A stretch of 64,000 nt of DNA from Pseudomonadota bacterium. GTDB lineage: Bacteria; Pseudomonadota; Gammaproteobacteria; Burkholderiales; Methylophilaceae. A program made the position numbers and the translations under genes. The stretch is from assembly GCA_020053735.1 (NCBI GenBank), contig JAGVMP010000011.1, forward strand, positions 372,001 to 436,000, in the 5' to 3' direction. The notes below the pieces were generated by a model. That model did not search any database. It was not told the origin of the DNA and saw only the letters and a list, made by a program, of their open reading frames with translations. This document shows, one piece after another, positions 38,848 through 58,768 of this stretch. Within the stretch, counting starts at the first letter, position 1. Each line of letters begins with the position of its first letter.

Positions 38848-38926
<79 letters not shown>

Positions 38927-41140: not shown

Positions 41141-42889
41141 CTAAGTTTTTTTGGCAGTTAAGTTTTTAAGCATATCGCGCTCATCTGCTGTCCACGTGCT
41201 CAAAGGTTTTTCTTTTAACGCATCCAAAATTCCGCCATCTTGCTTCTTCTGAATCATTTTACCTAATTGGGTGCACGCACCTTCAAATTCAAGCTCAAAC
41301 TCTGGCCCCTTAACAAATAAAGCCAGCTCATACCTAATTTCGTTGAGCAATTTTGTATCTACATTTGGCTCAATCGTATGCAACAATGCGGCAGGCTTCG
41401 ATTGGGGTTGCTGCAAAGCCGCATGGATACTGGCTTGCAGCAGCACGTTTTCTTCTCCAAAGCCTTGCGCAAAATTTAAATACTCATTTTTGGCTAAACT
41501 AGGCTGCATCAACAACATCAACACAAAGCGCTTTTTAATGCTAATTGGAGCCCGACTTTGTTTTTGCGTGGCTAACACGGGCACTCTGTTTGGTGCAGGT
41601 AGTTTGAGCAAACTTTGCATTTCTGCCTCAGTAACTTCGGCCAGCTCGGCAATTTTTTTACGCATAAAAAGTGCGCTACGCGGTGCGACGATTTGGCGCA
41701 AAATCGGCTCAGCTTCGTTTAAAAACTTCACCTTATCTTCTTGCGAGTTCAGCGGGTTATTTTCGCTTAAATGCGCAATTATGTATTGCGAAAGCGGCAT
41801 GGCATTTTGCATTTCTTGCTCAAACTTTTCTTTGCCAAATTCGCGCACATAACTGTCAGGGTCATGTTCTTTAGGCAGAAATAAAAAGCGTAATTTTAGC
41901 CCGTCAGTTAAAGCCGGCAGCGCGTTCATGGCAGCGCGCCAAGCGGCAGTGCGGCCTGCATTATCCCCATCAAAACTAAATACAATTTCATCGGTTTGGC
42001 GCATCAGCTTGGTAATATGAAACGGCGTAGTTGCAGTGCCCAGAGCGGCCACGGCATACTCAATGCCATATTGCGCAAGTGCCACCACATCCATATATCC
42101 TTCTACCACTAGCACGCGGCCAGCATCGCGAATGGCACGCCTTGCGACAAATAACCCATACAATTCATGACCTTTTTGAAACAGTGGCGTTTCGGGTGAA
42201 TTGTAATATTTGGGCGTATCTTCAGGATTGATGACGCGGCCACCAAAGCCAATCACTTGGCCTTTTTGGTCGTGGATAGGAAACATAATGCGGTCACGAA
42301 AACGGTCATAACGTTTGCCTTGCTCATTTTCCACTACCAAGCCCGCAGTTTGCAAAGCCTCGTTTTCATAGTTCGCAAATACACTTTGCAAATTTTGCCA
42401 GCCCGCGGGCGCATAGCCAATTTGAAACTTGGCGGCAATTTGGCCACTTAAGCCACGGCCTTTTAAATACTCTATGGCGCGTGGGCTTTCTTTTAATTGC
42501 GCTTTGTAATAGTTAGCGGCTTGTTGCAGGCTTTCCTGTAGGCCAAGTTTAATGGTTTTATTTTGTGCATCTGCTTCACGGGATTGTGGTGTAGATTGTT
42601 CTTGCGGCACAATCATGCCAACGTTTTTGGCTAAATCATTAATCGCCTCAATAAAACTTAAACCTGCATACTCCATCAAAAAGCCAATCGCCGTGCCGTG
42701 CGCGCCACAGCCAAAGCAATGGTAAAACTGCTTGGTGGGGCTGACGGTAAAGCTGGGAGATTTTTCGTTATGAAACGGGCAGCAGGCAGAATAATTGGCG
42801 CCGGCTTTTTTAAGCGGCACGCTTTTATCAATGACGTCAACAATGTCAACGCGGTTTAATAAATCCTGAATAAATGATTCTGGAATCAA
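41141..42889 (-). CDS. dnaG: DNA primase
   Basis: 582 residues. N-terminal CHC2 zinc domain (CPFHNEKSPSFTVSPTKQFY, HCFGCGAHG), central TOPRIM core with VVEGYMDVVALAQYG and FSFDGDNAGRTAAWRA, and a C-terminal helicase-interacting domain. It synthesises RNA primers with DnaB. Here the usual rpsU-dnaG-rpoD macromolecular synthesis operon is interrupted by a terminator and a repeat-like spacer between yqeY and dnaG. Confidence 0.98.
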   Translation of the reverse strand: MIPESFIQDLLNRVDIVDVIDKSVPLKKAGANYSACCPFHNEKSPSFTVSPTKQFYHCFGCGAHGTAIGFLMEYAGLSFIEAINDLAKNVGMIVPQEQSTPQSREADAQNKTIKLGLQESLQQAANYYKAQLKESPRAIEYLKGRGLSGQIAAKFQIGYAPAGWQNLQSVFANYENEALQTAGLVVENEQGKRYDRFRDRIMFPIHDQKGQVIGFGGRVINPEDTPKYYNSPETPLFQKGHELYGLFVARRAIRDAGRVLVVEGYMDVVALAQYGIEYAVAALGTATTPFHITKLMRQTDEIVFSFDGDNAGRTAAWRAAMNALPALTDGLKLRFLFLPKEHDPDSYVREFGKEKFEQEMQNAMPLSQYIIAHLSENNPLNSQEDKVKFLNEAEPILRQIVAPRSALFMRKKIAELAEVTEAEMQSLLKLPAPNRVPVLATQKQSRAPISIKKRFVLMLLMQPSLAKNEYLNFAQGFGEENVLLQASIHAALQQPQSKPAALLHTIEPNVDTKLLNEIRYELALFVKGPEFELEFEGACTQLGKMIQKKQDGGILDALKEKPLSTWTADERDMLKNLTAKKT

Positions 42890-47511: not shown

Positions 47512-47704
47512 TCGCAAGTCGCGCGAAAGCGACGGTTTTGATTGTAATTGAAATGGATTCTTCGCTACGCTCAGAATGACGGTGTAGAAGGTAGGAACAA
47601 TAAAAAAATAGCTTATTTAATTCACTTTAAACAACAATATCAAATCACCTGCCCTGTAAGCCAATATCCTTAAGGCTTCCAGAGCATCTGTTTTTGTCGA
47701 TAAG

Positions 47705-53166: not shown

Positions 53167-53261
53167 ATGCTCTGCAGACCGTGCAGACATTGGGTTTCAG
53201 GCATGAACAATTAGCTTTAGCTAATATGTTCTGCGGGACAACCCTTGCGGTTGCAGAGCAT
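53167..53261. ncRNA. Structured element, copy A (3' of cpoB)
   Basis: 95 nt closed by a 10-bp stem ATGCTCTGCA / TGCAGAGCAT. Inside are GAACA/TGTTC, TTAGC-TTTA-GCTAA and CAACC/GGTTG stems. The copy at 58673-58768 has the same layout with paired base changes in several stems. It begins 35 nt beyond the cpoB stop on the minus strand, with seven T residues three nt past its end on that strand. Could be a 3'UTR RNA or REP-like DNA element. Confidence 0.6.
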
Positions 53262-53296
53262 CTAATTTAATAGTAATTAATTAAATCAAATTATGA

Positions 53297-54121
53297 CTAT
53301 TTAAGGCCTTCTAATGCTTTCAGGCGTTTTTGCGCACTGGGCGTGATTTCCGCCTCAGGATGCTTTTCAACCAAGCTACGCAACGTTTTTTTGGCGTTGG
53401 TCACTTGCCCAAGCTGAATTTGACTATTGGCTTGGTTGTACATGGCATCAGGCACCTTAGGGCTAGTAGGATGCAAATCGATGACTTTTTGCTGGGTTGC
53501 AATGCTGGATTTGTAGTTTTTTAACGCAAACTGACTGTAACCCATGCCGTACAAAGCATCTGGCGCTAATTTACTATTAGGATACTCTTTTAGAAAAGCA
53601 TCAAATGCGGCAAACGCTTCTTTATGTTTAGCGGATTTACTTAAACTATCAGCATCGGCAAATGCGATGACATCTTTTTCTTCAACCGCCACTGCTGGCG
53701 CATTGACTGGTGGCGTTGTAGTTGATATTGCACCGCCCTCAATTTTACGCAAGCGCGAGTCAGTATCCGTGTACAAATCTTTTTGCCGCTGCTGTGCAGT
53801 TTCTAAATTGTGCTGCGCTACTTCTAAATCGCCTTTTAAATACGCCACTTCCCGCTTTAGCGCCTCAATTTGATTTTGCATATCAGCTAAGCCACCGCCT
53901 TGCACGATGGCTTCTATTGCCGCAACACGTTTTTTAAGATCAGCAATTGCCGCCATACTGGCGTCATGATTCGTTTGCTGCTTAGCTTCTAGCTCTAAAA
54001 TCTTTTTGCGCGCTTCTTTATCGTCAAACAAGGCGGCATGCGCCATGTTATTAAAAGCAGTGAAAGAAGTGAGCGCAAAAAGACTGAAGCTAACTAAAGC
54101 CAGCTTTCTAGCTACGAGCAT
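53297..54121 (-). CDS. cpoB: Cell division coordinator CpoB (YbgF), Tol-Pal associated
   Basis: 274 residues. Signal peptide ends AHA; an N-terminal coiled coil (about 35-120, rich in E, K and Q) for trimerisation and TolA contact; C-terminal TPR domain (about 150-270, SAKHKEAFAAFDAFLKEYPN, YGMGYSQFALKNYKSSIATQ). Periplasmic; links PBP1B and Tol. 3 nt after pal. Confidence 0.94.
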   Translation of the reverse strand: MLVARKLALVSFSLFALTSFTAFNNMAHAALFDDKEARKKILELEAKQQTNHDASMAAIADLKKRVAAIEAIVQGGGLADMQNQIEALKREVAYLKGDLEVAQHNLETAQQRQKDLYTDTDSRLRKIEGGAISTTTPPVNAPAVAVEEKDVIAFADADSLSKSAKHKEAFAAFDAFLKEYPNSKLAPDALYGMGYSQFALKNYKSSIATQQKVIDLHPTSPKVPDAMYNQANSQIQLGQVTNAKKTLRSLVEKHPEAEITPSAQKRLKALEGLK

Positions 54122-54124
54122 TAC

Positions 54125-54691
54125 TTAGTCGCCTTGGTGGACAATATCGACGCGACGGTCTTTATCGCAACTATCACCAGCGCAATTTTGGGTGGCCTTT
54201 TCTTCGCCATAACTGACAGTTTCAATTTGGCTATCTTTTACACCTAATAAATTAAGCGAATTTTTCACTGCCACCGCGCGGCGTTGACCAAGCGATAAGT
54301 TGTATTCACGTGTACCACGCTCATCGGTGTTGCCTTGCAAAATCATTTTTGCATCCGCATTAGCTTGCATGTATTTAGCATGTGCCTCAATAATCGGGCG
54401 ATATTCTGCTTTAACCGCATCGCTATCGTAATCAAAATAAATATTACGTTTAGATAAAATATTATTTGGATCTTTCAGCGCACTATTTCCAGCACTGTTG
54501 GCGCTACTATCAATCGCAACTTCTTTGATGGCGCCTGTATCTGCACCTGAATCAGCGCCAGTAGAGGCTCCAGCAGGGCTTTTATCTTCTACTTTTGCTG
54601 GCGTAACGGGGGTGCTTTTACAAGCCACCAAAAATACGGAAGCTACTGCAACCATTAGCAACTTTGCATTGAAACTCGTTTTTTGATTCAT
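54125..54691 (-). CDS. pal: Peptidoglycan-associated lipoprotein Pal
   Basis: 188 residues from the ATG at 54691, which has AAGGAGAG upstream. Lipobox LVAC (Cys24). Linker rich in A, S, G, D (about 30-70). OmpA-like domain (about 80-185): IYFDYDSDAVKAEYRPIIEA, LQGNTDERGTREYNLSLGQR, RAVAVKNSL. Anchors the outer membrane to peptidoglycan. Confidence 0.97.
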   Translation of the reverse strand: MNQKTSFNAKLLMVAVASVFLVACKSTPVTPAKVEDKSPAGASTGADSGADTGAIKEVAIDSSANSAGNSALKDPNNILSKRNIYFDYDSDAVKAEYRPIIEAHAKYMQANADAKMILQGNTDERGTREYNLSLGQRRAVAVKNSLNLLGVKDSQIETVSYGEEKATQNCAGDSCDKDRRVDIVHQGD

Positions 54692-54805
54692 CTTTCTCTC
54701 CTTATATGATGCCAAATAATGGCCAATTTAACACTAAAATTTTCAACAAAATCTCATATTTACCCTGAGCTTACTTTTTTCCTACTTTACTTAGCCAATT
54801 TACCG

Positions 54806-56110
54806 CTATTTTGCTAAAGGTCCCCAAGCAGGTTCACGCACATCGCCACCTGAGCTGTCTTTTAGGCGCTGACGCACTTTACCATCACTAGAAACCGCAG
54901 CCAGTGCACCACGCCCACCTACCTTAGTGGCGTATAAAATCACACGGCCATTTGGGGCAAAACTAGGTGACTCATCCTGGTTACCTTCACTTAGAATTTG
55001 CACTTGGCCGCTGGCCAAGTCTTGTAGCGCTACTTTAAATGCGCCGCCATCGTTACGAATATACGCCAAACTTTTGCCATCAGGTGAAAAACGTGGGCTT
55101 ACATTATAGCCGCCTTCAAAGGTAACACGGCTTGGGCTGCCCCCACTGGCAGGCACTTTGTAAATTTGCGGCTTGCCGCCGCGATCAGAGCTAAAGTAAA
55201 TCTGGCTGCCATCGGGCGAGAATATTGGTTCGGTATCAATTGCTGTGCTTTTGGTGATTTGTTTTAAATCGCCACCGCCTGATGAAACTGTATAAATCTG
55301 CGAATTGGCACCATACGTCAGCACAATAGCCAGCTTGCTGCCATCGGGCGACCAAGCTGGTGCGCTGTTGTTACCTTTGTAATTAGCTAATACTTGGCGA
55401 CTGCCACTGGTTAGTGATTGCACATATACAATTGGCTTTTTCTTTTCAAACGAGACGTAAGCTAACTTACTGCCATCGGGAGACCAAGCGGGCGAAATAA
55501 TCGGCTCATTAGATGACACCACGGTTTGTGGGTTGTAACCATCGGCATCGGCCACTTGCAGCGCGTAGCGCTTACCAGTTTTGGTAATATAAGCAATACG
55601 GCTAGCAAACAACCCCGTTTGACCGGTCATTTTTTGGTAAATAATATCGGCAATTTTGTGCGCAGTGGTGCGCACTTGGTGGGGCGAAATTTGATAATCC
55701 ATTCCCGCCAATTGTGTTTGCTTCAGTGCGTCCATTAGGTGAAACGAGACTTTCAGCTTACCACCGACGCTTTGAACACTACCCACTGTAACCGCTTGTG
55801 CTTGCAAAGCAGTCCACTCTGCATATTTTATTTGCGCTGGGCTCGTTGGCAAATTGGCCATGCCGCGTGTTTCTAATACGCGAAACAAGCCGCTGCGGTT
55901 TAAATCGGCAGCAATAATTTCGCTGATATTATCTTTGGTGTTGGCTGCGCCGCCAAACGGCGCTCCACCGAATGGAACGATGGCTATCGGGATTTGTTGT
56001 GCGCCGCCGCCAGTGATTTCTATTTCTAAAGCAGCATGTGCGATTGCATTGAAGAAAAATATCGCACCAAAAAACAAACTTTTAACGAGGTTGAATTGAT
56101 TTAGTTTCAT
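54806..56110 (-). CDS. tolB: Tol-Pal system beta-propeller protein TolB
   Basis: 434 residues. Signal peptide ends AIAHA. N-terminal alpha/beta domain (about 28-165), then six WD40-like TolB propeller repeats recognisable as SPAWSPDGSKLAYVSFE, SAPAWSPDGSKLAIV, EPIFSPDGSQIYFSSD, SPRFSPDGKSLAYIR. Binds Pal and TolA. 140 nt after tolA with no clear terminator between. Confidence 0.97.
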   Translation of the reverse strand: MKLNQFNLVKSLFFGAIFFFNAIAHAALEIEITGGGAQQIPIAIVPFGGAPFGGAANTKDNISEIIAADLNRSGLFRVLETRGMANLPTSPAQIKYAEWTALQAQAVTVGSVQSVGGKLKVSFHLMDALKQTQLAGMDYQISPHQVRTTAHKIADIIYQKMTGQTGLFASRIAYITKTGKRYALQVADADGYNPQTVVSSNEPIISPAWSPDGSKLAYVSFEKKKPIVYVQSLTSGSRQVLANYKGNNSAPAWSPDGSKLAIVLTYGANSQIYTVSSGGGDLKQITKSTAIDTEPIFSPDGSQIYFSSDRGGKPQIYKVPASGGSPSRVTFEGGYNVSPRFSPDGKSLAYIRNDGGAFKVALQDLASGQVQILSEGNQDESPSFAPNGRVILYATKVGGRGALAAVSSDGKVRQRLKDSSGGDVREPAWGPLAK

Positions 56111-56250
56111 AAGCGCTCAGTATATTATTATTAAGGGAGTGTCTTGTGGTTGAAAAAGTTCATGCAAATTTAACTGCAAAACGTACCGCTACGCCACACG
56201 ATTTACACTTTATTACAACTTTTACGCTTTGTTTACAACCAATAGGCAGT

Positions 56251-57066
56251 TTAGTCATTTGGTCTAAATTTTAAATTTATATTTCTGAACTGTGAAAATA
56301 ATGCAGGGTCACTTGGCAAGGGCAAGGGCTCGGAGGCAATAATGGCGCGCTCTGCAGCCTCGTCGCAAGCCGTGTTGCCACTGGTTTTAACCAATTTAGG
56401 ATTACTACTGAGCTGACCTGTGGGGAGCACACTGATGGCAAATGTAACTTCTGGATTACCATCGCCACATAGTGTCTTATTCACGTTGCCACGGATTTTA
56501 GCTTTAATTTTTTCAGTATATTCACCAACTAAACTCGCGTTGGTAGCGCTGGAGGCCTTATCATCATTGCCTTTTTCTTCATCTAAAAATTCTTGCTGAG
56601 CTTTTTTAAGCGCATCTTTTTGTGCCTTCTCTGCGGCTGCCTTATCCTTCAAAGCTTCTTCGCGTGTTTCAGCTTGCAAGGCCTCCAGTTTTTTCTTTTG
56701 AATTAACTTTTGTTCCAGTTCTTTCTCTTTTTTGAGCTCAAGTTCTTTTTTCTTTTTCTCCAGCTCGATATCCACTTTGGGCTCTTCAGGTTTTGGCTCT
56801 GGCTTAGGTTCTTCTTTTACAATTGGTTTAGGCTCCGGTTTGACTTCGGGCTTAGGCTCTTCTTTAATGACTGGCTCTGGTTTAGGGGTTTCTATAACTC
56901 TTGGCGCAGGTAATTTATCCCACAACTCTACCTCAGTCACGTTCATCACTGGGTGGGCCGCTTTCCAATTGAACGACACCAACATCGCCACCAGCAAGGC
57001 AGCATGTACCGCCAGCGCATAAAAACCTGCCTTATAAGAATCTGAATTTTCGTGCTTGCGTATCAT
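56251..57066 (-). CDS. tolA: Tol-Pal system protein TolA
   Basis: 271 residues. One N-terminal membrane helix (about 16-36), a P/E/K-rich section (about 58-100, repeated KPEPK/EEPKPE units), a long charged helix (about 100-170) and the C-terminal TolA domain (about 185-271, VGEYTEKIKAKIRGNVNKTL, VTFAISVLPTGQLSSNPKLV). Energy-transducing link of the Tol system. Confidence 0.95.
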   Translation of the reverse strand: MIRKHENSDSYKAGFYALAVHAALLVAMLVSFNWKAAHPVMNVTEVELWDKLPAPRVIETPKPEPVIKEEPKPEVKPEPKPIVKEEPKPEPKPEEPKVDIELEKKKKELELKKEKELEQKLIQKKKLEALQAETREEALKDKAAAEKAQKDALKKAQQEFLDEEKGNDDKASSATNASLVGEYTEKIKAKIRGNVNKTLCGDGNPEVTFAISVLPTGQLSSNPKLVKTSGNTACDEAAERAIIASEPLPLPSDPALFSQFRNINLKFRPND

Positions 57067-57075
57067 GCTAAATTA

Positions 57076-57486
57076 TTATTTTGGTCCAAGCAAAAGTCCA
57101 ACTTTTACGTCTTTATCAAGTTTCAATAATTCTAGAACGGCTACCACTTCATCATACTTAACATTTTTATCTGCAGCTATTACGACGCCTCTTTTGGGAT
57201 TTTCTTTTATCTTCTGTTTTATTTTTAACAATAAAACATCTCTTGTTAAGGCAGTATTTTCTAATTCAACTTTGCCATCCTTTTTTACTGTCAATACAAT
57301 TGGGGGCACTGGACGCTGAGTTAGTCCACTTTGCCCAACTTTTGGTAGCTCTACCACGCCTGGATTGGTCATCGGCGCAGTAACCATAAAAATCACCAGC
57401 AGCACCAACGTCACGTCAATATACGGCACCACATTGATTTGGTTCATCATCCGACGTTTGCGGCTTCTGCTCACGGTTGCGCTCAT
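57076..57486 (-). CDS. tolR: Tol-Pal system protein TolR
   Basis: 136 residues. One membrane helix with the proton-relay Asp in INVVPYIDVTLVLLVIFMVT; periplasmic domain with VVIAADKNVKYDEVVAVLEL. ExbD/TolR family. Between tolQ and tolA. Confidence 0.96.
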   Translation of the reverse strand: MSATVSRSRKRRMMNQINVVPYIDVTLVLLVIFMVTAPMTNPGVVELPKVGQSGLTQRPVPPIVLTVKKDGKVELENTALTRDVLLLKIKQKIKENPKRGVVIAADKNVKYDEVVAVLELLKLDKDVKVGLLLGPK

Positions 57487-57497
57487 GGCTCAACTCC

Positions 57498-58172
57498 TTA
57501 TGATTTGCGTTGCAAGATGTTGGTAAATTCTTCCATAAAGCTTTCGTAGCGTACCGACAATCTATCTACGCTACTTGCGAATCTATTGTAGGCAATCACC
57601 GCGGGAATCGCCGCAAATAAGCCAATGGCGGTAGCCACCAACGCCTCCGCAATACCAGGGGCAACTTGACTCAACGTGGCTTGCGCCACATTTGAAAGGC
57701 CACGGAACGAGTTCATAATGCCCCACACCGTACCAAATAAGCCGATATACGGGCTGACCGAGCCAACCGATGCGAGAAACGGCAAATGCGCATCCAAATC
57801 ATCCAGCTCTCGGTTATAGGCCGCACGCATGGCGCGACGTGAGCCTTCCATGACATCTGACACTTCCATACGACCTTGTTGTTTGTGGCGCACAAACTCT
57901 TTAAAACCTGCCTCAAAAATGCTAGCCATGCCTTGCGGTTTGCGACGGCCAGAGCTAATACCATCGTAAAGTTTATTCAATTCACCGCCACTCCAAAAAG
58001 CGCTTTCAAACTCTTCTGACTCTTTTTCTGCACGCTTAATCGTCGCCACCTTAATAAAAATATACCACCACGAAAATAGCGAGGTAATCAGCAATATCAA
58101 CATCACTGCTTGCACTGGCAAGCTGGCGCCTAAAATTAACGAAAATAAAGACATATCGTTTGCAACGGTCAT
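57498..58172 (-). CDS. tolQ: Tol-Pal system proton channel protein TolQ
   Basis: 224 residues, three membrane segments. FLASVGSVSPYIGLFGTVWG, then IAEALVATAIGLFAAIPAVI, are the MotA/TolQ/ExbB channel helices. Start overlaps the ybgC stop by 4 nt. Confidence 0.96.
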   Translation of the reverse strand: MTVANDMSLFSLILGASLPVQAVMLILLITSLFSWWYIFIKVATIKRAEKESEEFESAFWSGGELNKLYDGISSGRRKPQGMASIFEAGFKEFVRHKQQGRMEVSDVMEGSRRAMRAAYNRELDDLDAHLPFLASVGSVSPYIGLFGTVWGIMNSFRGLSNVAQATLSQVAPGIAEALVATAIGLFAAIPAVIAYNRFASSVDRLSVRYESFMEEFTNILQRKS

Positions 58173-58621
58173 ATTTGCTCCATTTTTACTTTGATTGCTG
58201 TTGGAATTGCGGTTGGTTTAAAAGTGTCTGCATCTACACACGCTACCTTTATGATGGCTTCAACCAGCATCGTTTTGTCAACATGCGATGCTTGATTGGA
58301 TGGTTGATTGGATAATTGATTGACGGAAATTTTTTGCAAAAATTCCAAACTACCTTGTCCTATCTTGCCAATCTCGCTACTAATAGTTAATAAGTCGTTA
58401 AATTTTGCTGGTTTTTTAAAAGCGATTTGGGCGCTATGCACCACAAAAATCACCTTTAACACATCTCGTAGGTAAGTCTGCTCAAACCCCAAAGCGCGCA
58501 GCCACTCGGTGCGGGCGCGCTCCATAAAGTTGAGATAATTTGAATGATACACCACACCACCAGCATCGGTGTCTTCGTAATAGACACGCACCGGCCAATT
58601 GAATGTTTGCTTGCTAATCAC
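58169..58621 (-). CDS. ybgC: Acyl-CoA thioesterase YbgC, Tol-Pal associated
   Basis: 150 residues, hotdog fold. VRVYYEDTDAGGVVYHSNYL, then FMERARTEWLRALG, is the 4-hydroxybenzoyl-CoA thioesterase family motif with catalytic Asp. First gene of the tol-pal operon; structured element copy B lies 51 nt upstream. Confidence 0.95.
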   Translation of the reverse strand: MISKQTFNWPVRVYYEDTDAGGVVYHSNYLNFMERARTEWLRALGFEQTYLRDVLKVIFVVHSAQIAFKKPAKFNDLLTISSEIGKIGQGSLEFLQKISVNQLSNQPSNQASHVDKTMLVEAIIKVACVDADTFKPTAIPTAIKVKMEQI

Positions 58622-58672
58622 AGGTAAATTTTAGCATAGATATATTATTTTTCACTATACGATAAATAATAT

Positions 58673-58768
58673 ATGCCCTGCAAGGCAATATCCATGCGGT
58701 CTTCACGTATGAATAACCAGCTTCAGCTGGTATATTCTGCGGGGACAACCCTCGCGGTTGCAGGGCAT
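58673..58768. ncRNA. Structured element, copy B (3' of ruvB, 5' of ybgC)
   Basis: 96 nt closed by a 10-bp stem ATGCCCTGCA / TGCAGGGCAT, with internal stems GAATA/TATTC, CCAGC-TTCA-GCTGG and CAACC/GGTTG. Compared with copy A, changes in one arm are matched in the other. It begins 30 nt beyond the ruvB stop on the minus strand. Confidence 0.6.

Follow-up and report, generated by a model that had tools for sequence, protein, structure and literature searches.

Small palindromic repeats that multiply in bacterial genomes have been described in several forms. In the sections of two reports used here, Rickettsia palindromic elements (RPEs) are dispersed palindromic repeats of about 100-150 bp that lie between genes and in-frame in open reading frames (ORFs), and orthologues across Rickettsia carry the insert at the same locus (PMC10969869, PMC3767692). 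Repetitive extragenic palindromic (REP) sequences and REPINs are characterized, in parts of other reports, as small hairpin repeats with many copies, some with bulged stems (PMC6006769; PMC3116915), while the CGTC-tagged REPs, including dRS3, RPE-4 and RPE-6, are presented in part of a further report as palindromes with a single 8-9 bp stem and a 4-5 nt loop, some of them intragenic, and with no associated transposase gene (PMC3733652). Here we analyze two structured elements, copy A and copy B, on either side of the ybgC-tol-pal-cpoB operon in a 64,000-nucleotide stretch of a Methylophilaceae genome (the window; contig JAGVMP010000011.1, positions 372,001 to 436,000). The source genome, G000, comprises 2.44 Mb in 19 contigs, and the relatives compared are numbered from G001. 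We consider it probable that these elements are composites of two dispersed repeats, M1 and M2, and that M2 is a non-autonomous mobile DNA of 57 nt.

Results

The elements flanking the tol-pal operon are M2 insertions within M1 hairpins

A preliminary description, made from the DNA letters of the window, had presented copy A (53167-53261, 95 nt) and copy B (58673-58768, 96 nt) as a twin 95-nt element bracketing the operon. Its coordinates and layout were right and the stems it quoted exact, as was its placement of both copies 30-35 nt past stop codons on the same strand; on the minus strand, they start 35 nt past the cpoB stop and 30 nt past the ruvB stop. RNA folding gave z-scores of -6.2 (plus strand) and -5.9 (minus strand) for copy A and of -6.1 and -5.0 for copy B, and 0 of 200 shuffles was as stable as either copy on either strand, with RNA or DNA folding. 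The two structured copies are therefore real, but the unit is not one element: each copy is a composite in which a double-hairpin insert, M2, lies within one arm of a hairpin repeat, M1. Removal of M2 from copy B leaves the 39-nt M1 palindrome, and copy A is a diverged version with an M2 of 56 nt. The parts are as follows.

53167..53196, minus strand: 5' (plus-strand) part of M1, copy A, with a diverged core; joined with 53253-53261 the two stretches form a 39-nt palindrome of M1 layout
53197..53252, minus strand: M2 insert of copy A, 56 nt, minus-strand reading AACCGC...CCTGA; R1 covariance-model match G000:C14:425194-425253, minus, 78 bits
53253..53261, minus strand: 3' (plus-strand) end of M1, copy A
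58673..58702, minus strand: 5' (plus-strand) part of M1, copy B, with the exact core CAATATCCATGCGG at 58686-58699, among 57 exact core sites listed for G000
58703..58759, minus strand: M2 insert of copy B, 57 nt; R1 covariance-model match G000:C14:430700-430760, minus, 81 bits
58760..58768, minus strand: 3' (plus-strand) end of M1, copy B

A BLAST search with copy A (E up to 10) returned 31 matches in G000, 18 of which cover at least 61 of its 95 positions. Between ruvB and ybgC, no copy of the element was found in any of the six relatives examined, nor was one found downstream of cpoB in any of five, although the same downstream neighbor is kept in only two of these. The operon is thus not bracketed as a unit, contrary to the preliminary description; copies A and B arose independently from a mobile, dispersed repeat and do not form a paired tol-pal device, and M2 has no conserved role near tol-pal. 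No Rfam family scored above its gathering threshold at either copy, and the matches at 10 element loci were all below gathering scores (E 0.04 to 0.87).

M2 is a covarying double hairpin dispersed through the Methylophilaceae

M2 measures 57 nt and consists of two adjacent hairpins; hairpin 2 has 14 pairs and is interrupted by two bulges. A first covariance model, built from 24 hand-picked copies, matched at least 30 places in G000 and was found in at least 28 of 100 Methylophilaceae genomes and at least 8 of 24 genera; these counts are lower bounds, as 54 candidates were scored per genome under stricter filters. A covariance-model search of this kind had been proposed in the preliminary description. 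Two model searches yielded 44 and 93 matches (137 together), of which 129 were kept after the 5 weakest and 3 duplicates were dropped, and 125 copies remained for the analyses below once rows that contained N or had duplicate or short flanks were removed.

Covariation was seen in 13 of the 19 pairs among the hand-picked copies, and all 19 pairs were changed on both sides in 91 distinct aligned rows from the second search, so that the selection on base pairing proposed from two copies is supported well beyond them. In the 91 rows, 93% of the paired cells could pair, compared with 27-41% once the partner was slid; because this alignment had been fitted to the model and shares a few rows with the training set, the counts are biased. 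Across the hand-picked copies, the two hairpin-2 bulges appear to occupy shared alignment columns. At three G000 loci (L019, L020 and L021), a 58-nt homologue of M2 is nested inside the M2 loop.

An exact M2 core pattern occurred in 14 stretches of named genomes, twelve of them titled Methylotenera or Methylophilaceae metagenome-assembled genomes and two uncultured proteobacterium, and an exact search of viral contigs with one such pattern gave 0 matches. A diverged relative of M2 with quite different stems lies at L069 1530-1590, just outside M1 instead of within it.

M2 lies in open frame within protein genes

Comparison of G000 with G001 revealed a 57-bp M2 insertion in dnaX, gltX, an ATP-grasp gene, a two-domain kinase-like gene, an sdhE-like gene and hda. 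(Gene names here rest on our reading of the translations.) When lengths were measured again between anchor words, the 57-bp difference was recovered in five of the six genes; the anchor word of the ATP-grasp gene was unmatched, and its difference rests on the alignment. For dnaX, gltX, the ATP-grasp gene and the sdhE-like gene, G001 was the most similar genome, while the kinase-like gene was 59% identical in G001 and 62% in G013. The insert is missing from hda in all 18 relatives that were displayed, among them G001; a further relative, G041, gave no readable alignment. There was no clear target duplication at the six coding sites. In G005, the ATP-grasp gene has a diverged M2 at apparently the same site as in G000, though G001 has none, suggesting that the site was used more than once or that transfer took place. 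In gltX of G000 (L015), a second in-frame insertion of 18 bp relative to G001 lies near M2 on its downstream side.

Eight of the 125 copies lie deep inside ORFs of at least 150 aa, deep meaning that over 30 codons separate the copy from each end of the ORF, as read off the table. They are found in a glnE-like gene (G021), hda, dnaX, gltX, the ATP-grasp and the kinase-like gene (G000), the ATP-grasp gene of G005 and a metalloprotease-like gene (G013). All eight stay open, each ORF gaining 19 aa. Since only one of the six frames of M2 is open, or two of six in the CTGAAG variant, the chance of eight open copies in eight is at most (2/6)^8, about 1.5e-4, given random independent frames. Thus it seems that only frame-compatible insertions survive purifying selection, suggesting that the host proteins predicted to carry the insert still work. 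Two more G000 copies lie at C-terminal ends, in a dadA-like and the sdhE-like gene.

When copies were divided by length, those deep in ORFs numbered 8 of 37 in the 57-nt class and 0 of 88 in the 58-nt class (P = 3e-5, all copies), a contrast in which the copies are not independent, five of the eight come from G000, and class was assigned by the first letters of hairpin 1. Within G000 alone it was not significant (5/18 vs 0/12, P = 0.066). Four copies of the 58-nt class are no more than 20 codons away from an ORF end, and one of these (L279) stays open.

M2 copies often share a landing sequence and are enriched in the loops of palindromes

AAG directly follows 67 of the 125 M2 copies, which corresponds to insertion 3' of CTT on the other strand, and the last base of M2 was A in 123 of 123. 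The reconstructed empty site lay in a hairpin loop with a stem of at least 7 pairs at 11 of 125 M2 sites, compared with 29 of 3587 AAG controls from the same loci (P = 4e-8); with a stem of at least 5, the numbers were 31 and 230. Most M2 sites in G000 carry the M1-like flanks CTGC/AAGCC on both sides, and at dnaX the flanks of G000 depart from those of G001 towards M1 on each side. In other genera, several M2 sites are loops of palindromes that look abundant and extragenic, L195, L257 and L262 being examples.

The M1 core is gained in genes by substitution

The M1 hairpin repeat spans about 39 nt and contains the core CAATATCCATGCGG, which has 245 sites in G000 with up to two mismatches, compared with 16 for a reversed-pattern control, and 129 with up to one mismatch, compared with 0. 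At this second threshold, G001 to G007 hold 72, 36, 18, 58, 28, 19 and 3 sites and G008 to G014 hold 4, 39, 79, 4, 1, 48 and 7, while each of 46 genomes outside the genus holds 0 to 13; M1 is therefore abundant in only part of the genus. Two further M1-related features lie in the window.

47649..47688, plus strand: M1-like hairpin without M2, core CAATATCCTTAAGG with 3 mismatches; extent set by eye
41419..41432, minus strand: M1 core within a coding-like stretch, CAGTATCCATGCGG, 1 mismatch

Eleven of 30 exact-core sites lie in ORFs of at least 150 aa. The arms form 4-6 pairs at 10 in-gene sites, where the core is kept, and 5-12 pairs at 17 intergenic sites, three M2 composites having been set aside. 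In hrcA, fabD, fmt, waaF and the gene for a small membrane protein, the relatives are ungapped at the core and their resemblance to it is graded across species, with indels close to the core in some rows of these alignments. The core in hda and gltX likewise appeared without length change, while purL showed no clear pattern. Insertion of M1 into genes is accordingly not supported, as the length at the core is unchanged. At L065, L066, L070, L073 and L075 of G000, with orthologues among L296-L325, the core arose by substitution and often encodes ANIHAG. An early reading of M1 as undergoing loop inversion was withdrawn; both M1 orientations can be explained if M2 enters either arm of a symmetric site.

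Gain in genes by substitution, with length unchanged at the core, is how uptake signal sequences accumulate, and in this M1 resembles a DNA uptake sequence. Against an uptake signal speaks density, known signals being much denser than M1 (one site per about 10-20 kb). A comEC-like gene was found in 13 of the 15 genomes of the genus, G000 included, the misses being the incomplete G004 and G006; it occurs in M1-rich and M1-poor genomes alike and so does not discriminate.

Other features of M1 were noted. In the 12 nt 5' of the M1 arm, AAAA occurs at 13 of 30 exact-core sites (L061-L090), compared with a background of 7%, and on the other strand of these sites the hairpin followed by a T-run has a terminator-like look; TTTT stands on the 3' side at 8 of 30. 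Another palindromic repeat, CTCAAACTCACTTCGTGAGTTTGA, interrupts the loop of M1 at L046 and L014, in G001 and G000. Elsewhere in the window, a tRNA at 38851-38926 (minus strand) was the sole Rfam match at gathering threshold.

Discussion

M2 has a high copy number, covarying pairs, precise presence or absence at coding sites between species, and open frames within genes. To account for this, we propose that M2 would insert preferentially just 5' of AAG, without clear target duplication, and would often land in M1 arms or in the loops of other palindromes. It would move as folded single-stranded DNA exposed at replication, its bulged hairpin perhaps being recognized by a Y1/HUH-type (IS200/REP-like) enzyme that acts in trans or has since been lost. 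Coding insertions would survive only when they are of the 57-nt (19-codon) form and lie in an open frame, and an in-gene M2 would mostly add a peptide like PQGLSPQNIPAKAGYSYVK. Single-strand movement by an IS200/REP-like route, with the enzyme supplied in trans, is our guess, drawn from the fold and its bulges, from the sequence at which M2 prefers to land and from the absence of any clear duplication.

Several observations weigh against mobility of this kind. The other 58 of the 125 copies have no AAG after them, and the M2 junction is ambiguous by one or two A's and hence compatible with a very short target duplication. The assembly of G001, against which the six coding insertions were read, is 83% complete, and translation of the inserts is predicted solely from open frames. 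The moving enzyme is unproven, because Y1 was not found in several M2-bearing genomes and the Y1 loci showed no significant M2-like ends. Specifically, Y1_Tnp (PF01797) had no match in 13 of the 15 genomes of the genus, G000 included, and matches in 2; in other genera, 9 of 14 M2-bearing genomes had matches and five had none (G034, G020, G070, G028 and G078); one contig of G034 carried 11 M2 matches. At 21 Y1 loci, we found no significant M2-like end (best E 0.069) and no autonomous relative. A search of G000 for a RAYT/IS200 enzyme, the REP-type transposase suggested in the preliminary description, thus found none.

The lack of PF01797 matches in G000 and other M2-bearing genomes, together with the shared alignment columns of the hairpin-2 bulges, raises the possibility of a moving enzyme unrelated to Y1 transposases, for instance a tyrosine recombinase that, like the integron integrase, works on folded single strands. 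We hold this to be somewhat unlikely; no candidate was identified, though no search of other recombinase families was made. Spread by short-tract homologous conversion between M1-like sites, in place of transposition, would fit the M1-like flanks at most G000 sites and the shift of the dnaX flanks, but elsewhere relatives of M2 sit in unrelated palindrome loops with other flanks, and M2 homologues lie within M2's own loop, so that we judge conversion unlikely. We regard as more doubtful still a bolder account, in which M2 is a single-stranded-DNA parasite moved by an as yet undescribed enzyme and able, in its frame-neutral 57-nt form, to colonize essential genes, and the M1 core, its landing site, is a third independent lineage of DNA-uptake-type signal written into coding sequence by point substitution.

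Two further explanations fare worse. A regulatory RNA or a pair of terminators, conserved in the service of the tol-pal operon, would agree with the position of both copies shortly past stop codons, with the T-rich minus-strand tail of copy A and with terminator-like calls at the element bases (53187-53171 and 58687-58674), in a region that has 12 such calls compared with 7.0 in shuffles. The absence of both copies from the relatives largely refutes it; the model matches across G000, several of them inside genes, and the lack of an Rfam family at gathering threshold also oppose it, and we consider it very improbable, although copy A with its T-rich flank may act as an incidental terminator. 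Lastly, an in-gene M2 could be bypassed or removed at the RNA level, like the mitochondrial byps, which are of similar length, and M2 does have strong hairpins. We give this hardly any credence: the eight deep insertions all stay open through M2, which bypassing would make needless.

The mobile M2 that we favor bears on how RPE-type palindromes enter protein genes without breaking them, and on what moves them. Its precise empty sites, landing preference, nested copies and frame-neutral length class make the mechanism testable, and GltX and DnaX with the 19-residue insert can be compared with insert-free orthologues.

Comparison with known systems

None of the titles and abstracts returned by our searches of open-licence papers described M1- or M2-type repeats in Methylophilaceae, and the systems closest to M2 each share only some of its properties. 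Like REPs and REPINs with their RAYT enzymes, M2 is a small, bulged hairpin repeat in many copies, but no Y1 gene was found in G000. A REPIN is an inverted pair of REPs, whereas the two hairpins of M2 are unlike each other; the GTAG/GTGG tetranucleotide at the hairpin foot was not seen by eye in M2 consensus A1, of which no formal scan was made. Some M2 copies sit in loops of palindromes that, by eye, look similar to CGTC-tagged REPs (for example L195 and L257), but instead of a single short stem M2 itself has a first hairpin and a second, 14-pair hairpin with two bulges.

Non-autonomous derivatives of IS200/IS605 (PATE-like) have structured ends and insert 3' of a short fixed sequence with no target duplication. 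M2 is similarly structured; CTT^ was seen at 67 of 125 copies, and the six coding sites showed no clear duplication but a junction ambiguous by one or two A's. M2 differs in measuring 57 nt in all, in that no Y1 transposase was found in G000 and in that no autonomous relative was found at the 21 Y1 loci. Classical miniature inverted-repeat transposable elements differ from M2, whose ends by eye are not inverted repeats and which shows no clear target duplication. Mitochondrial double-hairpin elements are, like M2, small, mobile and built of two adjacent hairpins, but they are organellar.

The likeness to RPEs is that M2, too, is palindromic, dispersed and in-frame within ORFs, with eight of eight deep copies open. 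It differs in being 57 bp long (95 nt only as the composite), double-hairpinned, represented by insertions that a related species lacks, and resident in beta-proteobacterial methylotrophs. By analogy, M2 is a relative of the RPE phenomenon in free-living methylotrophs.

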